Source: a virus. From it: a stretch of 22,196 nt of DNA. Below, one piece after another: positions 7,031-22,196 of the stretch (within the stretch, counting starts at the first letter, position 1; each line of letters opens with the position of its first letter). Below the pieces are notes generated by a model. The model was not told the origin of the DNA. It worked only from the letters and a program-made list of their open reading frames with translations, and did not search any database. Position numbers and translations under genes: made by a program. The stretch covers positions 1-22,196 of the IMG/VR virus record IMGVR_UViG_3300030085_005115; one strand, given 5' to 3'.

Positions 7031-10000
7031 AGAAAAACTAAAAGATTTTTTAAATCAGAAGGGTTCGAATAGTGATATGATAACATATGTCCGAACCGAG
7101 GCACCTGATGGTATCGGTGTAGATCCTGGCACCGGTGAAGAACTCTTAGATCTTAACAACGATCTGAAAGGGTTGCTAGGTGATTATGTTAGATTTATAA
7201 TGGAAGACGCTAATAACGATTTTTTACCGAACCCAGGAAATGAATTAGCAAGCCCTTCAAAAAAAGGAGATGACTTAGTATTAGCAGATCTGCAAGGTTT
7301 TGAAAAAGTTCACGTGCCGCAAGGGACAGAGCTTAAATCCAAGCTCAACGAGAATAGTAACAGTGGTAAATTTGATGATCTGAGCACTTTAATAGATAAG
7401 GTTGGTAAAAACTTTAGTAATCAAGAAAAGTTAAAAGAAATACAAGGACGACCTCTTAGTAAGCAAGGAGAAACACTAGTGTCACCGTCTGGCGAAAACA
7501 ATGATATCGTCAAGGCAACACAGCAGATGTTTCTAAAAAATAACAGATTTGCTAATGTAGGTGATGAAAAGTCAAAAGCTTTTGCCGAGAAACCTGTCGA
7601 CCCTAAACAATTTGAAATGGAAAAAGATTCTAACGAGGGAAGTGTTGTCATACAAAATAAGTTTGGTCAATATGATAAAGATCTAAACAAGACCAATTTG
7701 GACGGCATTAAAAAGATAGGTGCATCAATCTTACTTAAGTCTTCAGGTTTTTCAGCAGGAAGTACCCCTGGAGAATCTGATAATGTTGATGACGTTATTG
7801 CTAGCATTAACGATTTAACTTCTAATAACTTAGATGTTAATTCTGGGTTCACAAAGATAGATTTTAATATAATCAGGCCTAAAAACGCAAAAGGTTTCCC
7901 AGAAGATATATCTGGTAATTCTGTTAGGGACAATAGGGGAGAGTGGATAAACGCAGACCCGGACTCGATTAACTCAAAAACATTTGGATCTACATATAAC
8001 TCTGAGTTTAGGTTCACTGGAAATACAATTAAATTACATAAAATTCAAGCAGCCATATCAATGATCGCCGTAAAAAATGTAGGTAAGATCTTTTATGAAG
8101 GCTTGATATCGACACTAAGAGAAGCTGATAAGATTGACTTAATTAAGTCAGGTGAAGAATATCAGACTGCTAATCCAGAAGGCGATTTACTTTCGCATAT
8201 TATGGGAAAATCAAGAAGTCTTCAATCATCAAAGTTACAATTTAATGTATTTAGCAATTTACTAGCGAATACAACACACAATTACGGTTCAGCAGTCAAT
8301 CAAGGCATTAAAGAGATATTTGGAGAACCTTTTGAGTCTAACAGTTTAGATTCAATCGCAAATAGTAAAAATATTTCTCAGAGCCCAGGTTTTTGGATCG
8401 CGGTAGCTCGATCTGTTTTGAAGTCTTTTGACAATATTCAAAGCAATATAACAGGCCTAGATAGTTTAAATTCAAATGAGTTATTTTTGGTTTATAAAGA
8501 TATAATTGAATCTAATAAATTTATACAATTTTTTAATGCTATGGCAATCATAGGTGATGTATCACTGTTATCAAATAACAGTGTCACTAGCGAGGCTGGT
8601 AATGTTAGAGATGTAGATTTAATACCAGATACCAATTCCATCCCGGGTAAAAGTAGAAAAAAGAATGGCAGGTATAAAAATGAGTTGTCTTGGAATCAAG
8701 ATTCTAGTCCATCAATGTATCTTTTACCTGTAAACATTATTAGAGCTGCATCTAGATTAAGCAACACAGTTAGGGGAGAAAGTCCTGTCAGAGCGATGTT
8801 TGGATCTAAATTAGTAGAAAATACATATACTGGTATAGATGTGGATGGAAGCTACAATAGAATTCCTAATGAAGTTGTTAAAATTGTTGAGGACAAACTC
8901 GAAGCTGAGTATGTTCCTTTTTATATACAAGATCTTAGAACAAATGAGATTGTTTCTTTTAAAGCTTTTTTGGATCGACTAACTGATACAATTACACCCA
9001 ATTACACTGGTGTTTCTTCTTATGGCAGAATGGATGATGTACAGATATATCAAAGCACTTCTAGAAGTTTAAGTGTAGGTTTTACTATGTATGCCACTAA
9101 TAAAGAAGACTTTGACAGTATGTGGTACAAGATAAATAAATTTGTGACACTTCTATATCCTCAGTGGACCCCAGGAACAATGGTATCAAATGCTGATAAT
9201 TCAAAATTTTACCAGCCTTTTAGTCAAGTTGTTGGAGCTTCACCTATTGTTAGAATAAGAATAGGAGACATTGTTAAATCAAACTATTCTAGATTTGGTT
9301 TGTCTAGGGTCTTCGGTATAGGAGATAACAACGTCAGCCCTATGTCTGATGATTATCTTTACGGCGGCACTAGCAAATTTGCAGCAATATCTAAAAAAGT
9401 TTACGATATATACACAGAAGTAATTTTAAAGCTTTGGCTTTTAGGCGCAGGAAGTCCACAATCAGCAATTAGCGTAGCATTTGGTTCAGCAGGTGAATCA
9501 GCAAATTCTCAAGTTAAAATTGCAAAAAACTTTGCAAAAAAAATTAGCATGCAGGGTTTAGCTAGCCAAGAAGACTTATTTGGTCAAGGTAGTATTATTA
9601 ACGGTTTTGCAAACCCATTAGCTGTCAATGAATTAATGAATCAATTGGTAGATCCTAACACAGATCCATCAAATCCAAAATTAGGTTTTAAGGGTGATAC
9701 AGACTCCTTAGGCGCTTTACGTCAGGTATATCTTAAACCTAATGTAAACCTAGGTTACTTATGCACAAACGGCAAGAAGTACTTAATTAATAGAAAAATT
9801 AAAGTAAGAGTTGTGGAAAAAGGTAGACTTTCTGATATATCAAATAAATTTTCGTCTGATAAAATTGGATATCGTGTTCTGTGTGTTGATCCTGCCTCTC
9901 CAAGTGGATTGTTAGACTCAGGAGAATCTCTAATAGTTAAACACGAAGATATATATCCGGATCCTAAACTTCTTTTTAACGCTAGCTACACAGGCTTAGG

Positions 10001-10502: not shown

Positions 10503-10808
10503 ATGGCACTAAATAGATATTCATTTTCACCCCAGGGTAAGAATAGTCTGGGACAAAACTTTATAAGTAAGTCTAATGTTAATTATAAAATATATAATGC
10601 AGCTGAGCTTGGACTTATTAGCGTTAACACACACATACTGGAAGAGGGTGAAAGACTAGACTACTTAGCAGGTTTAAATTATGGAGACTCTTCATTATGG
10701 TGGATCATAGCAGCTGCCAGTGGCATTGGTTATGCTTTACAGGTACCACCTGGCACCATTTTAAGAATACCAAATAATATTACAGAAGTTTTTGGAGTCA
10801 TAGTTTGA
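10503..10808 (+). CDS. LysM-like baseplate wedge protein, gp53/XkdP-type
   Basis: 101-aa protein. The core GERLDYLAGLNYGDSSLWW followed by IIAAASGIGYALQVPPGTILRIP has the LysM-like order: 'D.LA...YGD...WW.IA..N', then 'PPGT.L.IP'. Such domains occur in the T4 gp53 wedge component and in XkdP-like proteins, where they bind other baseplate proteins rather than cell wall. T4 gp53 has 196 aa, so this is close to a bare domain with an N-terminal strand region. It begins 3 bp after the previous stop. Its TGA (10806-10808) overlaps the TTG start of the hub gene, implying coupled translation. Confidence 0.7.
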   Translation: MALNRYSFSPQGKNSLGQNFISKSNVNYKIYNAAELGLISVNTHILEEGERLDYLAGLNYGDSSLWWIIAAASGIGYALQVPPGTILRIPNNITEVFGVIV

Positions 10809-13800
10809 AAGGTAAGTACGATAAAATAACTAATTTTAATTTAAGTTATGAAAACCTCTTAGAGGCGATAGCTGACTTTGACGGTTTTATTACAGGGCTG
10901 TCTCACAATGACATTATTTTGTTTAACAAGACGACACTACCTAATGAAATACATAAGTTAAGAAACAAAGGTTACGAAGATGAGGGTTTAAGAATATTCT
11001 TGAAGCACATATACAGTCGCATATTAGACAGAACTACAGGCGCATATCAAATATACGACATGTTAAGTGGTAACACTGCTGATAAATACTTTAAACATGT
11101 GACTAATTACTTTGATTCTCCTTTAGTAGAAAATTTTCCAGGAAACTTAACAGATGAATTTACCGGTGCAGGAGAAGGTTTAGGTAAGTATATGCATATT
11201 GTTTTACCTACACAACACGACATGTTTTTACCATCTGGAAGAGGGGCTAATATATTTACAGCGTGTTCACCAACTGACTTTAGAATGAATAAAATAATAA
11301 GTTATCAAGTTCCTACTCAGTCCGGACTTAAAAAAAAGAACGTTGTTAATGATAAAGGTGAACTCAAGTTTGATGACAATAACCTTCCTAAACAAAGATG
11401 GACAACAGAGGGTAACTCTTTTGAAGCAGGTGGAATTGTCCACATTAATAGAGATAATTTAGGTAGTAGATTTGGCCGGCCAAGTTTAGGAGCTTTTGTG
11501 ATGAGGCACCCTAAAACATCCGTGATGGGAAGAAATAAATCACACTTACCAATATTTTTCAACGCAATACCACCAGTTGAAATGTCAAGATGCACGCCTT
11601 ATATAAAAATAGAAGTTGTGAGGCAAGACTTTAGTAATTCTTCGGAAAAAATAAGTAACATGAATCAAGTAGCGTACATGAGATTTACTAAAGGTGGGTC
11701 AGGTACATATGAGCTTGATGACGCTGTGGGTTTTTCAAATATTAAACCGATTAACAGTAAAAGTACATTATCAGAAAGAAATCTTCAAGACAGCGAAAAG
11801 ACAAAATTTTCTTTCATGGATATATTCACAGCGCCTCAAACCATGGCTAACGCTGATATAAACAAAAAAAATGTGAGTCTTTTTAGTTTAAATTATAACA
11901 ATGATGATCCTGTACTCGACCCAATCACACCTATGCTTTCATTAAATAGTTTGAACGTTAGTATTACAGGTGCTGGGTTTGGTTTACTTTCTTCAAAAAA
12001 AGGATCTTTGTCAATGACTTTGCACGATCGATCTAGAATGAGAGATTTAGCGCCACTTATATCAAGTACACAATTTGCAACAACAAAAATAATTATTGAA
12101 TATGGTTGGAATCACCCAGAGGGAGGCGTCAACTCTGATAATGTTATCGGCAAATATTTAAACGGATTAAAGGATCGATCCGTTTTTCAAGTTATTGGTA
12201 CCGACTTTCAGTTTTCAGATGGTAATACAGTAAAAATTGACGTTAATTTAGCTGCTTACGGATTTAGACAAAATGACAAAATACATTGCGGGAGTGGACC
12301 AGAGGTACCGCTTAACGTTATCGAAGATCATATTAAAAAAGTAACATCTGACTTAACAAAAAATAATGAAGACATCAAGGACGCTCCTGAAATAAGACAA
12401 CAGATCAAATTAAACTCTAGAAACGCAAGATCTATTAACTCTTCGATATCTTGGCAAGCTTACGACAAGCTATCTCCTTTCTTAAGAAACGGAGGGGAGA
12501 AGGAAGAGTTTGTCGATATTGTAAAAAATATATTAATTCCGGATGTTGAACTTTACAATAGCACTACCAGCGGAGATAAAATTAATACAGACACAGACGT
12601 CTCAAAAGAAATAAAGGCAGCTGAAGAAGAAACAGAAGATCAGATTGCAAGAATGATAGGTAAACTAGAAGATATTAAATCTGCTGAGAGTATAGACCCT
12701 TACCTCGAATCAACTGTTACTGATGGCTTTAATTCTAAATTTTATGAACAGACAGGCGAAGATGTTGTCTCACTTGGTAAGGTTATTTCCCATTTCATAG
12801 GTCACCCATTAGCATCATCTTGTATATATGATGAAGTTCAATTAGTTTTTTATCCTCTTAATCATCACGCTGCAGGTGGAAGAGTGCACACAACAGCTAG
12901 TCTACCAATACCCATTAAAAAACTAGAAGCTGCTATTGATAATAAGCTGAACAAAACTAGCAATATATCAGTCAACTCTTTCTTTAAATTAATTGAAAAA
13001 ATTGTCAGGGATAGAAATATTTCTGCATATGGGTTGTCTGATATATTTAAAGATATAAATACATTAAGAGGTAATGACAAAGAGACACAACTTAAGTTGA
13101 TAAAAACTAAAGCTAAGTCAGGCAATATTGAAGGGATGGGCGCAGATGATCCGGACGTCCAAGAAATTATTGAAGCTGAAAATCCCGATGCTATTTATAA
13201 TGAAGAAATTCAAGGATCTGTTAAAAAAGTAGGTGAAGAAAATCAAAAGTTATCACAAGAAATACAAGATATCAGTAAGAAAATATCTGACATAGACGGC
13301 GAAAACAAAGTAATACAGGAAAGAATCAATAAAAGAACAGAAGTAATAGGTTTGTTAAGTCCATCTACACCGCCTGAGGAATTTATTAGGTTGGCTGATG
13401 ATACTAGCAATGATTATAAATTAATTAGCGAAAACAATAATGCAAAAAGGGACTTAGAAAGAGAAAAAGCTAGTAAAAAATTAAAATTAGAAGGAAATAA
13501 GAACAAGTCTGACGCTTTGTTAAAAAAGAAAAAGACTTATGACAAGCTGCTTAAGCAAGCAATACAACAAGAAACAGCAGAAGTTAAAAAAAGCGTTCAC
13601 AAGAGATGTACTGATATATACGAAAACGATAATTTAAAAGATATATACCCAGCCGAGTCTAAGTTTATCAGACCTAATCTGTCCATGGATTTTGAAGTTT
13701 TGGAAGCAATAGATCCTCCAAATAGCAGTGAGTACAAGTTTTATCAATTAAGTAAGCGATATCAAGAAAACAAAAGTGGTACAAACGGACTTAAAGATAA

Positions 13801-14395
13801 TGTAACAATTCTTAGAGTACATATTTATGATGAAGAGTCTGTTTTAGACCCGGCAAAATATGCTTTGCACAGTTCATTAGTAGAAGGTGCAAACAATAAA
13901 TTTATCGGCAGTAAAAACTACATAGATGTGCTAAAAGAAGAGTTAGGCAATTTAAACTACAATGCTGTTAAACAAATAATGAAAAGATCATACCCGACCA
14001 TCATATACGGGTCAAATGGGTCGACTGTTAAAAATATATCAGTTAGTGCAAATACGTCAGGAGAATTAAGTAATGTTCTAGCTGTTGAAAGCTATGGTAA
14101 ACTTAGGGACGGACAAATAAAAGGACACAGTTACGAGAGTGAATATGAAAGCATAACAACATTACCGAACACAGTAACTGTTAACATGTTAGGTCAACCT
14201 ATGATAGGAAGAGGTAACAATATCTTTATAGACTTTGGAACAAATACTAGCTTAGATAACATTTATACAGTCAAAACTGTTTCTCATTCTTTAAATAAAG
14301 GAGACTTCTCAACAACTGTACAGTTAGTTCCATCTAATATAGGCGCAATCTCTAGCTTTAAAGATAGGATGAAAAGCACACTTGAAAATTTATAG
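10805..14395 (+). CDS. Baseplate hub protein, gp27/gpD-like, with coiled-coil insert
   Basis: 1196 aa from a TTG start with GGAG at 10794-10797, overlapping the previous stop as TTGA. The middle (about residues 375-480: LNSLNVSITGAGFGLLSSKK, GSLSMTLHDRSRMRDLAPLI, TKIIIEYGWNHPEG, VIGTDFQFSDGNTVKIDVNL) and the extreme C-terminus (MIGRGNNIFIDFGTN, then IYTVKTVSHSLNKGDFSTTV and QLVPS) match the pattern of hub proteins, whose last domain carries 'Y.V..V.H.....F.TT..L.'. Residues ~780-930 are Lys/Glu-rich and look like a long coiled coil. T4 gp27 has only 391 aa, so this is a strongly enlarged hub. No lysozyme domain is visible. It closes the tail operon. Confidence 0.68.
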   Translation: MKGKYDKITNFNLSYENLLEAIADFDGFITGLSHNDIILFNKTTLPNEIHKLRNKGYEDEGLRIFLKHIYSRILDRTTGAYQIYDMLSGNTADKYFKHVTNYFDSPLVENFPGNLTDEFTGAGEGLGKYMHIVLPTQHDMFLPSGRGANIFTACSPTDFRMNKIISYQVPTQSGLKKKNVVNDKGELKFDDNNLPKQRWTTEGNSFEAGGIVHINRDNLGSRFGRPSLGAFVMRHPKTSVMGRNKSHLPIFFNAIPPVEMSRCTPYIKIEVVRQDFSNSSEKISNMNQVAYMRFTKGGSGTYELDDAVGFSNIKPINSKSTLSERNLQDSEKTKFSFMDIFTAPQTMANADINKKNVSLFSLNYNNDDPVLDPITPMLSLNSLNVSITGAGFGLLSSKKGSLSMTLHDRSRMRDLAPLISSTQFATTKIIIEYGWNHPEGGVNSDNVIGKYLNGLKDRSVFQVIGTDFQFSDGNTVKIDVNLAAYGFRQNDKIHCGSGPEVPLNVIEDHIKKVTSDLTKNNEDIKDAPEIRQQIKLNSRNARSINSSISWQAYDKLSPFLRNGGEKEEFVDIVKNILIPDVELYNSTTSGDKINTDTDVSKEIKAAEEETEDQIARMIGKLEDIKSAESIDPYLESTVTDGFNSKFYEQTGEDVVSLGKVISHFIGHPLASSCIYDEVQLVFYPLNHHAAGGRVHTTASLPIPIKKLEAAIDNKLNKTSNISVNSFFKLIEKIVRDRNISAYGLSDIFKDINTLRGNDKETQLKLIKTKAKSGNIEGMGADDPDVQEIIEAENPDAIYNEEIQGSVKKVGEENQKLSQEIQDISKKISDIDGENKVIQERINKRTEVIGLLSPSTPPEEFIRLADDTSNDYKLISENNNAKRDLEREKASKKLKLEGNKNKSDALLKKKKTYDKLLKQAIQQETAEVKKSVHKRCTDIYENDNLKDIYPAESKFIRPNLSMDFEVLEAIDPPNSSEYKFYQLSKRYQENKSGTNGLKDNVTILRVHIYDEESVLDPAKYALHSSLVEGANNKFIGSKNYIDVLKEELGNLNYNAVKQIMKRSYPTIIYGSNGSTVKNISVSANTSGELSNVLAVESYGKLRDGQIKGHSYESEYESITTLPNTVTVNMLGQPMIGRGNNIFIDFGTNTSLDNIYTVKTVSHSLNKGDFSTTVQLVPSNIGAISSFKDRMKSTLENL

Positions 14396-14430: not shown

Positions 14431-15495
14431 ATGTATGAATATAGAAAAAACATCATCAAGAGTATCGTCATAGAAGGAAAATTCTCTTCAAGCGGTAAAA
14501 AAGTATTAATTAATATCGATAATGAAGGTATCGATATCACAGTAAATACATTATCAAAAATTAGAAAGCTTTCGAATCTTGATAGCATTTTAACTATAGA
14601 TCAGTACTATAAAAATTTTTTCAGTGTCTTGAATTTAAAATCTATTGTTGACTATAATAAAATACTGGGCAACATTAAAACAAACGAATACAACAGATAT
14701 CTTAAGCAAAAAATAATTGATAGTGTGAAACTAGTTACCTCATACCATTCAGAAATATTTCCTATCAGAAATATGTGCTACTTGAATTTAGCTGATGTCT
14801 ACTTAGACAATGAACTTTTAGAAAAGCCAACATACGATCACACAGGTGTGACCGGTAGAACTAGCATAACAAAAGGATTTAATTTTCTAACCCTGAAAAA
14901 AGACTTAAGAAAAAAATTGACGATCAAGAATAAAAACTTGAAACTAGTAGAATTAGACTTTAAGTCGTGTGAGCCCTTTTTCTATTTAAAGTCGCAAGGT
15001 TTTGAAATAGCCGGCAATGACGTCTACTTGTGGCTTTGCGAAAAATATAAAATTGACTTTAAAGATAGAGATAGTGTCAAAAGAGGAATTCTATCAATGA
15101 TATACGGTGCAAATGCAAAAACTATATCTAGAATTATGAATCTCAAAGAATCAAAAATTAACCTAATTAAAGAAGAATTAGGAATTAACGCGCTAAAAGA
15201 TAGACTAGATAAAGAATTTACTGAACATGGTTTTGTTCTTAATTACTATGGAAGACCTATTACGAGCAATAATAACCTAGTCAATTACTGGATACAATCA
15301 TCAACAGTAGATTATTGTTCTTTAGCATTTAATCAATTCAAAAAAGAGAACAAAATAAAGCCTGTTTACTTTATTCATGACAGCATGACATTCCAAGTTC
15401 ACAACGAAGACGTACAAGATATTTTTGAAAAAACTCAAATAAGAGAAGAAAAATCAAATATCGCTATTCCTATAGAATATACAATTATTAGTTAA
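14431..15495 (+). CDS. Minimal family A DNA polymerase (palm/fingers only)
   Basis: 354-aa protein with the ordered motifs of family A DNA polymerases (E. coli Pol I numbering in brackets): TGRTS (141-145; R668 region), motif A LDFKSCEP with D176 [D705] and E181 [E710, the sugar gate of DNA polymerases], O-helix R213-x3-K217-x7-Y225-G226 [R754, K758, Y766, G767], GR at 274-275, N285/Q289 [N845/Q849], and motif C HDS 316-318 [H881, D882, E883]. L221 occupies the F762 position and S318 replaces E883. Only ~140 residues precede the TGR motif, so both exonuclease domains are absent and the thumb is shortened. T4-like phages normally replicate with a family B polymerase (gp43), so this is likely accessory, perhaps repair or gap filling. 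No ribosome-binding site precedes the ATG. The gene is visibly A+T-rich (14641-14700 is 27% GC). Confidence 0.85.
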   Translation: MYEYRKNIIKSIVIEGKFSSSGKKVLINIDNEGIDITVNTLSKIRKLSNLDSILTIDQYYKNFFSVLNLKSIVDYNKILGNIKTNEYNRYLKQKIIDSVKLVTSYHSEIFPIRNMCYLNLADVYLDNELLEKPTYDHTGVTGRTSITKGFNFLTLKKDLRKKLTIKNKNLKLVELDFKSCEPFFYLKSQGFEIAGNDVYLWLCEKYKIDFKDRDSVKRGILSMIYGANAKTISRIMNLKESKINLIKEELGINALKDRLDKEFTEHGFVLNYYGRPITSNNNLVNYWIQSSTVDYCSLAFNQFKKENKIKPVYFIHDSMTFQVHNEDVQDIFEKTQIREEKSNIAIPIEYTIIS

Positions 15496-15500
15496 TATTT

Positions 15501-15522
15501 ATGTTATGCAGGAGTATAACAT
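15501..15522 (+). promoter_or_regulatory. Hairpin presenting the ribosome-binding site in its loop
   Basis: ATGTTAT (15501-15507) and ATAACAT (15516-15522) are perfect inverted repeats. The 8-nt loop between them contains AGGAG (15510-15514), the ribosome-binding site for the ATG at 15525. The distance from AGGAG to ATG is 10 nt, and folding would keep the site single-stranded. The stem is A+T-rich and only 7 bp, so stability is modest. Confidence 0.45.
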
Positions 15523-15524
15523 TT

Positions 15525-16040
15525 ATGAGTAATATTGACGAAATAGGTATGGGTGCATTTAGACCTGAATTAACACCGACTGGTAAACATAATCCAGCTG
15601 GAATGATGATGTCACCTAGAGCTGATGCTGACAGTTTATTTGCAACAACTATGGCAAAACTAGCATATGAAGACGTTGAAGATAATGAAGAGGAAGAAGA
15701 GCCTGACTTAATCAAAGAACACGATTGTATATTAAACGCTCGTGTCAGAAAAGGTAGAAAATATTTTTTAGAAGAAACTCTACTGAGATTAGAAGAAAAT
15801 GTTGATTACGCTGGTAAATTTAAAATGAAGATGGATAAAATCACAAATACCGCAAAGGAAAGAATAAGTGATATTAATGAAGAAGAAGAGCAACCATTAG
15901 ATGAATTTTCAGGTGCTATAGCTGGAGGTGGAGGCCCTGTACCACCCATGGGTTATACAGCTAAAGGGAAACCTGAGACAAGGACACAAAGAAAAAAGCG
16001 ACAAAAGTTTAACAGAGAAAAAAGTTTTCCATATCGCTAA
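15525..16040 (+). CDS. Acidic protein with basic tail upstream of gp32, unknown function
   Basis: 171 aa from the ATG at 15525. An upstream in-frame ATG at 15501 is rejected because AGGAG (15510-15514) lies after it and correctly before 15525. The N-terminus (MSNIDEIGMGAFRPELTPTG) is followed by an acidic run (DNEEEEEPD), a helical middle (VRKGRKYFLEETLLRLEENV), a second acidic run (EEEEQPLDEFSGAIAGGGG) and a strongly basic end (RTQRKKRQKFNREK, SFPYR). In T4 the genes next to 32 encode the late-transcription coactivator gp33 and helicase loader gp59. The position invites that comparison, but I see no motif that proves it. The GAIAGGGG stretch looks like a flexible linker between an acidic body and a nucleic-acid-binding tail. 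Confidence 0.75.
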   Translation: MSNIDEIGMGAFRPELTPTGKHNPAGMMMSPRADADSLFATTMAKLAYEDVEDNEEEEEPDLIKEHDCILNARVRKGRKYFLEETLLRLEENVDYAGKFKMKMDKITNTAKERISDINEEEEQPLDEFSGAIAGGGGPVPPMGYTAKGKPETRTQRKKRQKFNREKSFPYR

Positions 16041-16086: not shown

Positions 16087-16128
16087 AATTTAAACATTGC
16101 ACATTGGACATTACAAGTTAAACATTAA
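16087..16128 (+). repeat. Six tandem 7-base units in the gp32 leader (putative gp32 operator)
   Basis: The 42 bases split into six contiguous heptads starting at 16087, 16094, 16101, 16108, 16115 and 16122. All fit the pattern A-N-N-T-T-R-N; four of them begin ACATT. The array ends 1-2 bases before the GGAGG ribosome-binding site (16130-16134) of gp32. It is A+T-rich and unlikely to fold strongly. T4 gp32 represses its own mRNA by cooperative binding to an unstructured leader, and its site size is about 7 nucleotides, so this array is a plausible cooperative operator. Confidence 0.55.
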
Positions 16129-16139
16129 TGGAGGAAATA

Positions 16140-16913
16140 ATGGCACTTGATTTTGATGCGATCAGACGTAAACTAGACAAACTTAGCGGTAATAACACTA
16201 GCAGAAATGTAATGTGGAAGCCTGAAGAAGGACAAGAATACAAGGTAAGACTTCTTTCTTTTCCAGATAACGACGGACAACCATTTAAAGAATTGCAATT
16301 CTACTACAATATTCCAGGTCAACGAGGATTACTTGCACCAAGCCAATTCGGTAAGCGTGACCCGATCCAAGAGTTGATTAATAAGCTTCGCGACGAAGGA
16401 ACAAAAGAAAGCTATGAAATGGCAAAGAAATTGTATCCTAAAATGCGTGTATACGCACCTGTCGTTGTAAGAGGTGAAGAAGGTGAAGGTGTACGAATTT
16501 GGTCGTTTGGAAAATTAGTATATCAGTCTTTACTATCACTTATGATGGACGAAGACTATGGTGATATCACTGATCTTAAAACCGGTACAGATCTTAAGAT
16601 TAAATGTACAAAAGCTCCTGGTCAACAGTGGGCAAAAACTGAGGTATTGCCTGTTCGCAAGGCATCAGCACTTTCTAAAGACTCTAAACAAGTCAAAGAA
16701 TGGGTTGAGGGCATTCCAAACATTAATGATATTTTTAGACTTAAGTCTTATGACGAGTTAAGTAATATTATTAATAGCTGGTTAAATGGTGAAGAAGAGA
16801 CAGAAAGTACAGGTTCTGAATGGAATAGTAACCAAAAAACCACCGATAACAATGAAGAGGGAGGAAAAAGTTATTCAAGTTTGGATGATGCTTTTTCTGA
16901 TCTCATGAGCTAA
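16140..16913 (+). CDS. gp32: Single-stranded DNA-binding protein, T4 gp32-like
   Basis: 257 aa from the ATG at 16140, chosen because GGAGG (16130-16134) lies 5 nt upstream. An in-frame ATG at 16128 overlaps that site and is unlikely. The body shows gp32-like order: N-terminal helix (ALDFDAIRRKLDKLSGNN), an OB-fold region (YKVRLLSFPDNDGQPFKELQ, YPKMRVYAPVVVRGEEGEGV, RIWSFGKLVYQSLLSLM), then a polar linker and the acidic end YSSLDDAFSDLMS, which in gp32 binds partner replication proteins. The zinc-binding Cys/His set of T4 gp32 is missing; the only cysteine I see is in KIKCTK. It has its own candidate promoter, operator-like leader and terminator, so it can be expressed independently. Confidence 0.85.
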   Translation: MALDFDAIRRKLDKLSGNNTSRNVMWKPEEGQEYKVRLLSFPDNDGQPFKELQFYYNIPGQRGLLAPSQFGKRDPIQELINKLRDEGTKESYEMAKKLYPKMRVYAPVVVRGEEGEGVRIWSFGKLVYQSLLSLMMDEDYGDITDLKTGTDLKIKCTKAPGQQWAKTEVLPVRKASALSKDSKQVKEWVEGIPNINDIFRLKSYDELSNIINSWLNGEEETESTGSEWNSNQKTTDNNEEGGKSYSSLDDAFSDLMS

Positions 16914-17009: not shown

Positions 17010-17981
17010 ATGAAAAATATTTTAGATAGTAGAGTTAAAAATTATAGAGGTTATAGACTTCAGGAAACTGTTTTTAATCTCAAAGACCGGCAAGACCAGC
17101 ACGATCAAATCCAACAAATTATTAATGAAATAGAATTTTTGACACGTAACCATTCTGCTGATACTTTACTAGAAGGTTCCTTTGGTGGGAAAATGCTTTA
17201 TAAGTTTATAGCTAAATTAATCACAACAGTTGTCCAATTTTTCGGAGATCAATACACCGGTGACGTCGGTGGTATTGTAATGCTTCCTGCAGCTTTGGCT
17301 AAAAATGCGTATGATTTAAATAAATCAAATAAAATAATTAGACCAATTATAGATAAGGTACAACAGCAAGATTTGACGCCTAAGGACATTGCGGATTTGC
17401 AAGAGTTAGTTGGCGAAATAAAAGGAGATATATCAGATTTAGTTAGAGCCCTAGTCATTGCAATTCCTGGTTTAGGGCTTGACGAAGCTGCCGGAGCTCT
17501 ACTAGGTTTTCTGGAAGACACATCTGTCGGTTCATCTCAAGCTATCCTTGCTTGGTTTAGGTCAGCTCGACAACGTGGTGGATTAAAAGGTATGATAGCA
17601 ACAATAGCGACATATGTTTCATACTTTGGAGGTGGGTCTATATTTGCTGACGCACTTGACAATCTAATAGAAGCTGAAGCTGTCCTCAAAGCCGGCGGAG
17701 TAAAGATGACTACATTACCTGCTCCTGAAATAGAGACACTGGAAGATTTGCAAAGAATAAATGATCAGGATTCGAATGGTCTTCAGCAATCAGATAATAT
17801 AGAAGATGTTGACAGTGGAGGACTTCCACCTCTAGATTTAGACTCCTCAGGAGATATGCCCGAACCAACACGAGGTAGTCACTTAAGAATCGTCGATGCG
17901 GATGATGATTTAGGCCCTAATAATCTCGCAGAGTCAAAAATTAACTTAAGAAGGTGGCAAAAACTTTCAGGTTTAATTTAA
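17010..17981 (+). CDS. Unknown protein A with C-terminal RWQKLSGL tag
   Basis: 323 aa; GGAGG at 16998-17002 supports the ATG. A polar, helical N-terminus (RDQHDQIQQIINEIEFLTRN) is followed by Ala/Gly/Ile-rich segments that could be buried or membrane-associated (DISDLVRALVIAIPGLGLDE, MIATIATYVSYFGGGSIFAD), then an acidic linker (about residues 250-300) and the end NLRRWQKLSGLI. The next gene encodes a protein of nearly equal length with the same tag and a similar order of segments, for example GGIVMLPAALAKNAYDLNKS here against VLVGSASIAATLLDMKSLND there. The two are likely diverged paralogs. I do not recognise the family. It stands between gp32 and uvsX, which could mean a replication-time membrane or virion-internal role, but neither is shown. 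Confidence 0.8.
   Translation: MKNILDSRVKNYRGYRLQETVFNLKDRQDQHDQIQQIINEIEFLTRNHSADTLLEGSFGGKMLYKFIAKLITTVVQFFGDQYTGDVGGIVMLPAALAKNAYDLNKSNKIIRPIIDKVQQQDLTPKDIADLQELVGEIKGDISDLVRALVIAIPGLGLDEAAGALLGFLEDTSVGSSQAILAWFRSARQRGGLKGMIATIATYVSYFGGGSIFADALDNLIEAEAVLKAGGVKMTTLPAPEIETLEDLQRINDQDSNGLQQSDNIEDVDSGGLPPLDLDSSGDMPEPTRGSHLRIVDADDDLGPNNLAESKINLRRWQKLSGLI
17951..17971 (+). repeat. 21-bp perfect direct repeat, copy 1 (C-terminal tag)
   Basis: Encodes the RWQKLSG part of the tag of protein A. It is identical to 18961-18981, 1010 bp downstream. Including eight bases upstream, 27 of 29 positions agree. The rest of the two genes does not show comparable identity. Confidence 0.9.
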
Positions 17982-18001: not shown

Positions 18002-18991
18002 ATGAAAAATAAAAGATACGATTTAATAAGTACATTAGAGAAAATGAGTGAACAAGTTCTTTTTGAAAATTTAGACTTGGACTTAGATGGGATAGATAGA
18101 GATGCGCTAAGAGGGACTTCCTCAGCAGCTCGCGCTGCTAAAGGTTTAGGAGGGGCATTTGAAAAATTACCACAAATAGCCAAATTTTTACCCAAGGCAG
18201 CAGGCAACCTAATTAAATCAACGGTCATGGCAATTCCTGTTGTTGACGTTTTAGTAGGTTCTGCATCTATTGCAGCTACGCTGCTTGATATGAAAAGTTT
18301 AAATGATAAGATGTCAATATTGTTAGACTTAGATGGCGAATCTTTTGGAAAGTATATTTTGGCAGGAAACGATGCTGAATATGCCGACTTAATGTCTAGG
18401 GTTAATAGATTGCCTGAAGATGACAGGCAGATCCTAAGAGAAGATTTTGAATCTGCTCTGGAAAACTTAAAGAAGTTGATTTTAACGATCGTCCAATCCT
18501 ATGATACTGTTGCTGCAGCAGTCCCGGCTGCAGGTGCAGGCGCTGCATCTTTTGGTACTGGTGCAGTTGCTGTAGAAGCCGGCACCAATTTGACAACTGC
18601 TGTTCTCGGATTTTTAGGATCTATGGTCCCTATCGAAAGATTTTTACTTGAATTAGCAGGTGAATCGGGTGAAGCCGGAAGAAAATTGTCTTCTCTTCTT
18701 AAAACTTCCTTTAAATCAGATCCGGACGAGGGTAAATTAGGCGAAATAAAAGAAAAAGGTGGGCCTTTAGTCTATTATTTTCTCTCTAATTATCTTAATC
18801 CTAATTCCAACATCGAACCCGGCTTAAGACTTTACACATTCTATAAACAACTTAAGAGAGAAGGAGAAGACTCATACTTGAGTCAAGCTGTTAAAGGCAC
18901 AGCAAATGCCATGATCTCTGGGCAAGGAGAAGAGTTTTTATCCGAGGGATATAATTTAAAAAGGTGGCAAAAACTTTCAGGATTATCTTGA
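18002..18991 (+). CDS. Unknown protein B, diverged paralog of protein A with the same tag
   Basis: 329 aa, starting 20 bp after protein A, with AGGGTG (17989-17994) as a moderate ribosome-binding site. It has Ala/Gly-rich hydrophobic stretches (KSTVMAIPVVDVLVGSASIA, AAAVPAAGAGAASFGTGAVA, TAVLGFLGSMVPIERFLLEL) that could be membrane-active or pack into a helical bundle. It ends in NLKRWQKLSGLS. Weak collinearity with protein A includes the LPEDDRQILREDFESALENL stretch against LTPKDIADLQELVGEIKGDI, each followed by an Ile/Leu/Val helix. The central Ala/Gly-rich segment is specific to B. Function unknown; an ejected virion-internal protein or a membrane protein are both possible. Confidence 0.8.
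   Translation: MKNKRYDLISTLEKMSEQVLFENLDLDLDGIDRDALRGTSSAARAAKGLGGAFEKLPQIAKFLPKAAGNLIKSTVMAIPVVDVLVGSASIAATLLDMKSLNDKMSILLDLDGESFGKYILAGNDAEYADLMSRVNRLPEDDRQILREDFESALENLKKLILTIVQSYDTVAAAVPAAGAGAASFGTGAVAVEAGTNLTTAVLGFLGSMVPIERFLLELAGESGEAGRKLSSLLKTSFKSDPDEGKLGEIKEKGGPLVYYFLSNYLNPNSNIEPGLRLYTFYKQLKREGEDSYLSQAVKGTANAMISGQGEEFLSEGYNLKRWQKLSGLS
18961..18981 (+). repeat. 21-bp perfect direct repeat, copy 2 (C-terminal tag)
   Basis: Second copy of the sequence at 17951-17971, encoding the tag of protein B in the same reading phase. Recombination between the copies would remove exactly one gene length (1010 bp) and leave one intact tagged gene. Confidence 0.9.
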
Positions 18992-19041: not shown

Positions 19042-20208
19042 ATGGGAAAAAAAGATGATTTTACCTCGCAACTTATAAAGTCTTTAAATAAAGATTACAA
19101 GACAAAAGTTGCTTACAATTTAGCAGAAGATGAAAGCCCAACACAAGTAAAACGCTGGATATCTACCGGTTCTAAATTGTTAGACTATATTTGTGCAAAT
19201 CAAGAAAACGGAGGTTTTCCAGAAGGACGCATTGTTGAAATGTTTGGGCCTCCATCAATTGGAAAATCGCACATTGCCACACAAATTGCAAGAAGTACTC
19301 AGAAGATGGGTGGTATTGTTGTTTACATCGATACTGAGAACGCAACAAGTATTGAAAATTTAGGCAATTTAGGCGTGGATGTTTCGCAAAGATTTGTATA
19401 TGTAGATACGCATTGCACTGAAGAAGTGCTCGACTTGGCTGAAAAGACTATTCTTAAAGCACGTGCACTAGATAAAGACGTACCTGTTACAATTATCTGG
19501 GACAGCGTTGCTGCTTCATCACCAAAGGCAGAATTGTTAGGTGACTATGATAAAGAAAGTATTGGGCTGCAAGCTAGAGCTATTTCTAAAGGCATGAGAA
19601 AAATTACAGGTGTGATTGGGCAAACAAACAGTCTTTTAGTTTGCTTAAATCAAATACGAACAAAAGTAGGAGTTATGTATGGAGATCCTGATACTACACC
19701 CGGAGGTAAGGCAATCCCTTTTCACTCATCTATACGAATCAAATTGGGAGCGGGACAACAGATCAAAGAAGGGGACGACGTTATCGGCATTAATGTCTGG
19801 GCTAAAACGGTTAAAAACAAAGTTGCGCCCCCGTTCAGAAAAGTAGCATTCCAAATTCATTTTGGAAAAGGTATCGTTGAACACGAAGAAACTTTTGACT
19901 TACTAAGAAAGCATGGTATGGTGACTCACGAAGGTCGATGTTACTTAGTCTCTGGTACTGGTGGCTGGAAGACAATTCAGATCATGGACGAGAATGGTGT
20001 TGAAATAGAAACTAAAAAGTTTAGAAAGACAGAATTCAACGAAGTTATGGAAGATAACTTCTGGGGACCTATTGTTGACATCATCTTAAAAGACGCAATG
20101 ATTAAAAAGATGGGCACCTCAGATGGCGTCGATATCGACCCAGAGTCGTATGAGGAAGTAAAAGAAGTTGGCAATCTATTATTAGACTTTGATGAGAATG
20201 ACATATAA
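19042..20208 (+). CDS. uvsX: UvsX RecA-like recombinase
   Basis: 388 aa, almost the length of T4 UvsX (391). It forms filaments on single-stranded DNA and drives strand exchange for recombination-dependent replication. Visible motifs: Walker A GPPSIGKS (69-76), catalytic-glutamate region VVYIDTEN (E99), Walker B TIIWDSVAA (D154), and the conserved DNA-loop region NQIRTKVGVMYGDPDTTPGG (203-222). AGGAG (19031-19035) lies 6 nt before the ATG but can be hidden in a hairpin on read-through RNA. The stop TAA overlaps the next ATG by one base (TAATG), so rnh is translationally coupled. Partners expected from T4 are gp32, UvsY and the gp41 helicase. Confidence 0.96.
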   Translation: MGKKDDFTSQLIKSLNKDYKTKVAYNLAEDESPTQVKRWISTGSKLLDYICANQENGGFPEGRIVEMFGPPSIGKSHIATQIARSTQKMGGIVVYIDTENATSIENLGNLGVDVSQRFVYVDTHCTEEVLDLAEKTILKARALDKDVPVTIIWDSVAASSPKAELLGDYDKESIGLQARAISKGMRKITGVIGQTNSLLVCLNQIRTKVGVMYGDPDTTPGGKAIPFHSSIRIKLGAGQQIKEGDDVIGINVWAKTVKNKVAPPFRKVAFQIHFGKGIVEHEETFDLLRKHGMVTHEGRCYLVSGTGGWKTIQIMDENGVEIETKKFRKTEFNEVMEDNFWGPIVDIILKDAMIKKMGTSDGVDIDPESYEEVKEVGNLLLDFDENDI

Positions 20209-21185
20209 TGGTAAAGAATAGAATCTTAATATTTGATGCGCTCAATGTCTTCATGCGGCATTATGTCGCACATCCAGCAATGTCAGATAACGGTGAACAA
20301 ATTGGTGGGATTGTGGGTTTCTACTACAATCTCGTCAACCTTATAGACAAGTGTAAACCTGAAGGCGTCATTGTTGTTTGGGAAGGGGGAGGTTCTAAGA
20401 GAAAGCGAGATCTCTATCCAGACTACAAAAAAGGTAGTCGACCAGCGAAAATGAATAGATACTACAGTAAAGAAGAGATACCAGACACGTTAGAGAATAG
20501 AAATTTTCAGATCAGAAATTTGGTAGGGATACTTGGTAACTTACCAGTTTGTCAGGTCTATATTGAAGATGCAGAAGCAGACGATGCAATTGGTTACCTC
20601 TCAAAATACAAGCTTAAAGATAAGAATAAAGTTATCGTCACCGGTGATCATGATTTCTATCAGCTCGTTGACGAAAATTGCATTCTGTACTCTCCAAACT
20701 CAAAATCATTTATCAACACGGATAAAGTTTTAGAAAAGTATGGTGTGCATCCTCATAACTTCTGCCTAGCTAAATCAATAGTAGGAGATAAGTCTGATAA
20801 TATTCCAGGCGTACCAGGAGCCGGCTATAAAACTTTGGTAAAAGAATACGGAGAATTATTTAAAAGAGAAGACTTCGAAAATAATGCATTCCAGTTGTTT
20901 ATCGAAAACGACGTTAAACACCAGAGCAATCCAAAGAAAAAGATATATAAATCCATTAAAGATAATGAAAAGTTGATTGAGCGTAACGTTAGACTAGTCA
21001 GATTGGATGTAGATAACTTGGTGCATATGCAAACTAAAAAACTTGATGAAAGCATTGAAAATTTTAAACCTTCATGGAATAATATGAATGCAATAAAATA
21101 CCTAAGAGAAAATAATATAAAAAATATAGACATACTTCAACACGGGTATCTTTTTAGAAACCTCAAACAAGGAAAAATTTTGTGA
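20208..21185 (+). CDS. rnh: Rnh-like 5'-3' exonuclease / flap nuclease
   Basis: 325 aa (T4 Rnh 305 aa), a FEN-family 5' nuclease that removes RNA primers and flaps from lagging-strand fragments. Metal-binding acidic residues and family blocks are in order: ILIFDALN (D10), VVWEGGGSKRKRDLYPDYKK (57-75, the helical-gateway region), EADDAIGYL (E123, D125, D126), VTGDHDFYQL (D147, D149) and IVGDKSDNIPGVPGAGYKT (191-209; D194, D197 and the helix-3-turn-helix DNA-binding motif). It is coupled to uvsX by TAATG and to the helicase gene by a 1-base overlap (TGATG), which fits coordinated synthesis of lagging-strand factors. Confidence 0.94.
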   Translation: MVKNRILIFDALNVFMRHYVAHPAMSDNGEQIGGIVGFYYNLVNLIDKCKPEGVIVVWEGGGSKRKRDLYPDYKKGSRPAKMNRYYSKEEIPDTLENRNFQIRNLVGILGNLPVCQVYIEDAEADDAIGYLSKYKLKDKNKVIVTGDHDFYQLVDENCILYSPNSKSFINTDKVLEKYGVHPHNFCLAKSIVGDKSDNIPGVPGAGYKTLVKEYGELFKREDFENNAFQLFIENDVKHQSNPKKKIYKSIKDNEKLIERNVRLVRLDVDNLVHMQTKKLDESIENFKPSWNNMNAIKYLRENNIKNIDILQHGYLFRNLKQGKIL

Positions 21186-22196
21186 TGAATGCACCCATTA
21201 ACCCAAATTACTTTTCAAAGTACGGAAAAGACTTTCAAGAAAAAATATTTCAAGCACTTTTAGATGATCATTCTTGGGCTTCACAAATGATGGAGGTAAT
21301 GAAATACGATTATTTCGAACTTAAATACCTCCAGTTTCTTTGTGACAGATTTTTTAGTTTTCATGAAAAATATAGAAATTTCCCCACACTCCAACTTTTA
21401 GTTTCTATTATCAAGGATGATTTATCTACTGGTGATGATGTTATTCTCCGTGAACAAGTGATAGAATATCTTTCGCGCATGAAAGCAAACCCTAACTTAA
21501 GTGATCTCAAATATGTGAAAGATAAATCATTAGATTTCTGTAAAAAGCAAGCGTTACAGCAAGCATTAGAAGATAGTGTCAAGGCAATTAAATCAGAAAA
21601 TTATGAGTCTGTTCTTAGCATCATGAAAGACGCTGTTTTCAAAGGTAATTCTTCTACTTTAGGCCACAATTTCTTTGAAGATCACGAAGCACGTTTTCAA
21701 CTTATCGATCGTGCCACATGTCCGACAGGCATTAGTCACTTAGATAAAAAAGACGTCTTAAATGGTGGTCTTGGTCGAGGTGAAATTGGTGTAGTTGTGG
21801 CAAATACCGGTGTTGGAAAGTCTCATTATTTAGTTGCTATGGGTGCTGAGGCTTTACGACGAGGAAAAAATGTAGTTCATTATACTTTTGAGTTAACTGA
21901 AACTGCAGTTGGTATAAGATATGACAGTAATTTGTGTAATATTCCATCTTCAAATGTTATTCAAAATAAGGAAAAAATACTCGAAACTTATTCAGATAAT
22001 GACTTTGGAAGGTTGATAATTAAGCAATATCCTACGGGCGCGGCAAGCATCGTAACTATTAGAAATCACCTAGAAAAACTAGCAATGAAAGATTTCAAAC
22101 CGAGCTTACTCGTGATCGATTACGCGGATATTATGCGATCTACACGAACTTACGATTCACTTAGACACGAACTAAAATTAGTATACGAAGAACTTA
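21185..22196 (+). CDS. gp41: Replicative DnaB-type helicase, T4 gp41-like (3' end outside window)
   Basis: 337 complete codons are present. The start ATG at 21185 overlaps the rnh stop (TGATG), with AAGGAA at 21169-21174. Residues 1-155 form the helical N-terminal part that interacts with primase or loader. The RecA-like motor begins near residue 180 (CPTGISHLDKKDVLNGGLGR). Walker A is ANTGVGKSH (206-214, K212 S213), the following strand reads VVHYTFELTE, and Walker B is LLVIDYADIM (308-317, D312). T4 gp41 has 475 aa, so about 140 residues are missing at the right edge. As a hexamer it unwinds the fork and works with gp32 and the lagging-strand machinery. Confidence 0.94.
   Translation, partial: MNAPINPNYFSKYGKDFQEKIFQALLDDHSWASQMMEVMKYDYFELKYLQFLCDRFFSFHEKYRNFPTLQLLVSIIKDDLSTGDDVILREQVIEYLSRMKANPNLSDLKYVKDKSLDFCKKQALQQALEDSVKAIKSENYESVLSIMKDAVFKGNSSTLGHNFFEDHEARFQLIDRATCPTGISHLDKKDVLNGGLGRGEIGVVVANTGVGKSHYLVAMGAEALRRGKNVVHYTFELTETAVGIRYDSNLCNIPSSNVIQNKEKILETYSDNDFGRLIIKQYPTGAASIVTIRNHLEKLAMKDFKPSLLVIDYADIMRSTRTYDSLRHELKLVYEEL

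Follow-up and report, generated by a model that had tools for sequence, protein, structure and literature searches.

A compact family A DNA polymerase core without exonuclease domains in a conserved phage replication block, with a probable accessory role

A DNA polymerase that is encoded without any exonuclease domain, and that lies between the tail genes and the replication genes of a phage with T4-like components, raises the question of what such an enzyme contributes to DNA metabolism, and of which polymerase it works beside. The window analyzed in the present work spans an entire IMG/VR contig (22,196 bases), itself a 22-kb fragment, in which the polymerase gene has the following neighbours:

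10805..14395, + strand: 1196-aa protein, conserved upstream neighbour, tail- or baseplate-associated by position
14431..15495, + strand: stand-alone family A DNA polymerase core, 354 aa, ATG start, intact; divPolA1-slot protein
15501..16040, + strand: conserved downstream neighbour, 179 aa in the window
16128..16913, + strand: gp32-like single-stranded DNA-binding protein
19042..20208, + strand: UvsX/RecA recombinase
20208..21185, + strand: FEN-type 5'-3' exonuclease, for which the top NCBIfam hit is the N-terminal domain of DNA polymerase I
21185..22196, + strand: DnaB/gp41-like replicative helicase, truncated where the contig stops and complete in the related contig G001

The polymerase gene and the predicted fold of its product

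The open reading frame at 14431-15495 is genuine, and its match to family A is not a chance one. The family A residues that the original prediction had named in it are all present and map onto E. coli Pol I, with the equivalences given below taken from an alignment of the family with MG1655 PolA:

14854..14859, + strand: TGR motif, G142-R143 (R143 = R668)
14956..14973, + strand: motif A, D176-F-K-S-C-E181 (D176 = D705, E181 = E710)
15067..15108, + strand: motif B or O-helix, R213...K217...L221...Y225-G226 (R213 = R754, K217 = K758, Y225 = Y766; F762 replaced by L221)
15283..15297, + strand: N285...Q289 (N285 = N845, Q289 = Q849)
15376..15384, + strand: motif C, H316-D317-S318 (H316 = H881, D317 = D882; E883 replaced by S318)

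The protein possesses the TGR motif and motifs A, B and C that define family A, with the equivalents of R668, D705, R754, K758, Y766, Q849 and D882, and it departs from the E. coli enzyme at two positions, F762 (L221) and E883 (S318). The Pfam DNA_pol_A model matches the 354-aa protein with an E-value of 2.5e-6 and 27.2 bits, against Pfam's own cut-off of 34.3, and this curated cut-off is passed in 7 of the 19 related records described below. A PHROG DNA polymerase family matches the protein at 3.9e-8, and a profile built from 15 relatives matches a Pol I among the PDB sequences at 9.5e-9; the NCBIfam search returned no match for the polymerase, and the PADLOC search returned no match to a defence-system family. 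The Pfam search found no exonuclease domain in the protein, as had been predicted, and the fused 5'-3' and 3'-5' exonuclease domains of bacterial DNA polymerase I are absent from it.

An AlphaFold2 model generated from the 15-sequence alignment has a pLDDT of 92.2 and a pTM of 0.88, and replaces a run on 4 sequences in which the N-terminus was poor (pLDDT 70). The family A palm anticipated from the motifs is borne out in this predicted structure, which contains the palm/fingers fold of the family: every one of the best 50 listed PDB matches is a family A DNA polymerase, and the named matches in a viral fold library are DNA polymerases, including the 313-aa PolA of Lau218, on which a literature search found nothing. 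The TM-scores of the model are modest (0.4-0.5 by query length) and the rmsd is large, which suggests that the placement of the domains, or the thumb and N-terminus, differ from those of the matched structures. The model puts two helices, 75-99 and 105-115, at the location where a thumb would be expected, and a very short thumb is plausible.

Conservation of the gene, its neighbourhood and the replicase beside it

Scanning viral contigs with protein and profile queries identified 19 viral loci which encode relatives of the polymerase, with identities of 51-61% in a close group and 35-39% in a second group; G001, a 58-kb contig from the same species as the window, encodes an identical polymerase, and no relatives were found in bacterial and archaeal genomes. 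In the conservation alignment, which comprises 15 members out of the 19 loci, R143, D176, E181, R213, K217, Y225, N285, Q289, H316 and D317 are invariant in all 15. Position 762 is Leu, except in two members which have Ile, and position 883 is Ser or Ala, so that the kinetics of the polymerase may differ. The two non-identical pairs that are closest to each other have dN/dS ratios (Nei-Gojobori) of 0.06 and 0.13, the remaining pairs being near saturation of synonymous sites. Because the motifs are invariant and dN/dS is low, the gene is under purifying selection. Decay, which the original prediction had associated with a loss of motifs A and C in close relatives, is thereby ruled out, and two damaged copies are isolated cases: the gene of G005 is frameshifted (locus L006, about 10750) while the near-identical copy in G002 is intact, and that of G018 (locus L047) has a TAG at 8823, where the family has a conserved Trp. 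These two copies may reflect either sequencing error or isolated loss.

The gene order around the polymerase is likewise conserved, and runs from the tail genes through the PolA core, the conserved neighbour, gp32, a variable interval, UvsX, FEN and DnaB to RNR in the window, in G001-G005 and in loci L032, L037, L038, L042, L044, L046 and L048, as far as each of them reaches. The location between the tail module and gp32 had been thought unexpected; it is instead a slot that the phage group as a whole conserves, and one from which a PolA-like protein, divPolA1, has already been published (PMC11348598).

Several features of the surrounding genes may be recorded. The downstream neighbour of the polymerase (window 15501-16040; L006:11070-12323; homologs) ranges from 162 to 448 aa, and its long form has, in its C-terminal part, a weak match to GNAT acetyltransferases, a part which is missing from the 179-aa form of the window. 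The interval between gp32 and UvsX is highly variable among relatives; the two proteins that it encodes in the window (17010-17981 and 18002-18991) are otherwise unlike but have the common C-terminus NL(R/K)RWQKLSGL, and a protein of G011 (149459-150940) ends similarly in LSRWQRLAGL. Many otherwise different proteins of G011, G005, G001 and other relatives (loci L086-L097 and L012-L020; for example G011:26418-28709 and G001:42146-43135) share an N-terminal segment, M(K/R)(I/L)(T/S)(K/R)xQLxxLIxxxLxE, which a simple pattern finds in 23 of the 188 open reading frames of G011, where 0 are expected in shuffled N-termini. Judged from sequence, this segment resembles a tag for sorting or packaging.

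The identity of the replicase is central to any account of the small polymerase. The original prediction had contrasted the latter with the family B polymerase (gp43) of T4-type replication modules, but Pfam DNA_pol_B has no match in any of the 19 related records, each of which contains exactly one PolA match, and a family C replicase, DnaE, is encoded in four of them: G001, G005, G010 and G011. The family B contrast is therefore inapplicable, and the lineage is T4-like in its tail, single-stranded DNA-binding protein and recombinase, yet has a replicase of bacterial type. DnaE is 1172 aa long in the copies translated (G001, G005, G011), and in G011 it comprises PHP, pol3-alpha, finger and HHH domains; a DnaE stretch gave no DNA-level match in named phages. 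The records that lack DnaE are possibly fragments, although some are long (134 and 136 kb).

Genes for accompanying replication and repair functions are distributed among the same records. An exonuclease encoded near the polymerase, which had been held to weigh against a stand-alone enzyme, was found for one polarity and not for the other: the neighbouring open reading frames tested gave no 3'-5' exonuclease match, but the 5'-3' FEN lies 4.7 kb downstream. FEN genes are present in 11 of the 19 records, including all eight that exceed 50 kb, and in two copies in G005, G010 and G011. The largest record, G011 (236 kb), has genes for a DnaG-like primase, recognised by its DnaG-type zinc ribbon, for a DnaQ-like exonuclease, an ATP-dependent DNA ligase and an Fpg glycosylase, and additionally for an SbcCD-like fusion, a chaperonin and a sigma-70 factor. 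DnaQ occurs in two records, and Fpg/MutM-type DNA glycosylases in five relatives (for example G011:90788-91594, G005:39692-40504 and G001:37329-38174); ligase, primase and DnaQ were seen only in the larger relatives, and none of the three in the 22-kb contig of the window. The SbcCD-like fusion (G011:158587-161715) is a 1043-aa chain joining an SbcD-like phosphoesterase to an SbcC/Rad50-like ATPase, in which the functions of T4 gp47 and gp46 are apparently fused.

Comparison with divPolA1 and with other family A polymerases

Judged by the tail tube, Microcystis phage Mel-JY01 and Flavobacterium phage immuto are the nearest named phages. The same slot is occupied in immuto by gp001 ('DNA polymerase family A', 441 aa), beside a second, full-length PolA; in Mel-JY01, whose replicase is a PolB, by a 408-aa protein; and in LR756508 (484 kb) by a 451-aa protein. 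The Mel-JY01 protein (PP395634.1, 50397-51623; WWT39333.1), labelled a 'hypothetical protein', is an unannotated divergent PolA-like protein. The name divPolA1 was given to the immuto-type protein, which has been described from 14 phages where it lies beside a regular PolA, PolB or PolC. In that account the thumb of divPolA1 is truncated and its exonuclease inactivated, the replication genes downstream of it are conserved, and a role in replication was proposed from the gene neighbourhood (PMC11348598, 2024). Because divPolA1 has been reported in the same slot, the window protein is regarded as another form of a protein type already in the literature. Both are divergent family A polymerases encoded in addition to a regular polymerase of family A, B or C, both lie upstream of genes for a single-stranded DNA-binding protein, a RecA-like recombinase, a 5'-3' exonuclease, a DnaB helicase and RNR, and neither has active proofreading.

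They differ in length and in the active site. The window protein, at 354 aa, begins about 65 residues later in the alignment than the immuto and LR756508 proteins, and the N-terminal region which in divPolA1 is reported to be an inactivated exonuclease is missing from it, with no exonuclease match. E710, R754 and H881 are kept in the window's clade, whereas the immuto, LR756508 and Mel-JY01 proteins have His, Tyr and Tyr at these positions and Phe, rather than Leu or Ile, at position 762; all three retain K758, Y766 and the two aspartates that bind metal. The occurrence of E710H, R754Y and H881Y in syntenic proteins suggests that Pol I-like catalysis may not be a requirement of the slot. A tree built on the palm and fingers gathers the 15 short proteins into a single group and the three syntenic homologs into a second, both of them long-branched and without a settled place among full-length polymerases. 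An hhalign comparison of the window's family gives similar scores for the divPolA1 profile (E 8e-8) and for E. coli Pol I (E 9e-7), and a common descent of the window protein and divPolA1 would rest on position and not on sequence. The slot proteins may have had one ancestor, or the slot may have been refilled by another PolA. The window protein looks like a more stripped-down form of the divPolA1 kind, set apart from the three slot proteins with which it was compared, while some divPolA1 proteins of the PolC-type phages may equal it in form.

The divPolA2 proteins of barbaviruses resemble the window protein in being a stand-alone palm without an exonuclease, beside another replicase, and in the sequence of motif A (DFKxxE), but their gene neighbourhood is variable (PMC11348598) where that of the window's clade is fixed, and the profile comparison with divPolA2 AUR84708 is weak (E 0.03 over 92 columns). 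E. coli PolA, or its Klenow fragment, shares the polymerase motifs and fold with the window protein, and bacterial DNA polymerase I probably also shares its setting, in which DnaE is the replicase and a FEN nuclease acts together with the polymerase; the window protein, however, has no 3'-5' exonuclease domain, its FEN is a separate gene, and its palm and fingers comprise 225 residues as against 274 in E. coli, about 50 fewer. Polymerases of the T7 type are also phage-encoded family A enzymes with the same motifs, but T7 gp5 is a replicase which proofreads, while in the window's clade the replicase is DnaE. PHROG 15971, a 'DNA polymerase I' family of 376 positions, is similar in length and has a local profile match to residues 208-335 (E 6.5e-6). 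The split polymerase of RM378, a possible precedent, was rejected, as the gene labelled 'DNA polymerase' in RM378, p024, encodes a family B exonuclease domain.

The role of the polymerase core

The interpretation that is on balance favoured is that of an active family A core, devoid of exonuclease, which serves as an accessory gap-filling polymerase beside a family C (DnaE/Pol III alpha) replicase. It retains from the original prediction the stand-alone, exonuclease-less and probably accessory enzyme, linked to gap filling or recombination, and leaves behind the family B contrast. The conservation of DnaE, the presence of FEN in the block and the small, non-proofreading character of the polymerase together make gap filling the likeliest task, in primer removal, in repair and in recombination, as bacterial Pol I performs it, and the accessory role is supported by the fact that the slot is filled whether the replicase is PolB (Mel-JY01), a full-length PolA (immuto) or DnaE. 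Bacterial Pol I would then be reproduced in outline as separate genes: the FEN nuclease would remove RNA primers or flaps, the PolA core would fill the resulting short gaps on a gp32-coated template, and the phage ligase would seal them. Short-patch repair, for instance following the action of the phage Fpg glycosylase, could fall to the same core, which could also extend the recombination ends made by UvsX. We infer the catalytic activity of the protein, its partners, its phenotype, its division of labour and its absence from bulk replication.

The clustering of the polymerase with gp32, UvsX, FEN and DnaB would equally fit a direct role at the fork, and the possibility that the PolA core is the principal replicase, with DnaE secondary, draws on the fact that it is the PolA core, and not DnaE, that is found within the conserved helicase, single-stranded DNA-binding protein and recombinase block. 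This is nevertheless improbable, given that the DnaE of the window's species and that of G005 share 91% identity while the PolA core is only 56-58% identical, that the polymerase does not proofread, and that other phages of the group change their replicase and keep the slot. A more specialized function in recombination, in which the polymerase would extend invading 3' ends in D-loops formed by UvsX and gp32, start or restart recombination-dependent replication and then hand over to DnaE, has the better claim of the two, since the gene forms one conserved block with gp32 and UvsX and a non-proofreading enzyme suits short D-loop extension; but the same block contains FEN and DnaB, so that recombination is not singled out, no UvsX-binding feature was recognised in the polymerase, and as a principal function it is judged rather unlikely.

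The lack of an exonuclease domain could also be read as the mark of a translesion or damage-tolerance polymerase which uses its missing proofreading to pass lesions, and the Fpg glycosylase of the same phages points to base damage. The sugar gate and O-helix residues are canonical, however, the protein is too small to hold large insertions in the fingers or thumb, and Leu at position 762 makes Taq polymerase slower but more accurate, according to work cited in PMC6302109, so that this reading is given a low probability, slightly above that of the principal replicase. The least probable reading of all is that of a catalytically idle fold kept to bind primer-template or partner proteins: E710, R754 and H881 are all replaced, identically, in the three syntenic homologs, but each of them is invariant over the 15 diverged members of the window's clade.

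A broader picture, less likely than not, may tentatively be drawn, in which a clade of phages with a Pol III-type replicase has rebuilt bacterial Pol I as a FEN nuclease and a bare core of about 350 aa, in a slot that outlasts exchanges among family A, B and C replicases and that houses two types of active site, canonical here and E710H/R754Y/H881Y in cultured relatives, with perhaps two chemistries. The retention of an accessory PolA slot through swaps of the main replicase, and the contrast between two active-site types at one syntenic position, would give these phages their particular interest, and a natural, minimal, nuclease-free family A polymerase would be useful for asking what the thumb and exonuclease domains of the family do.
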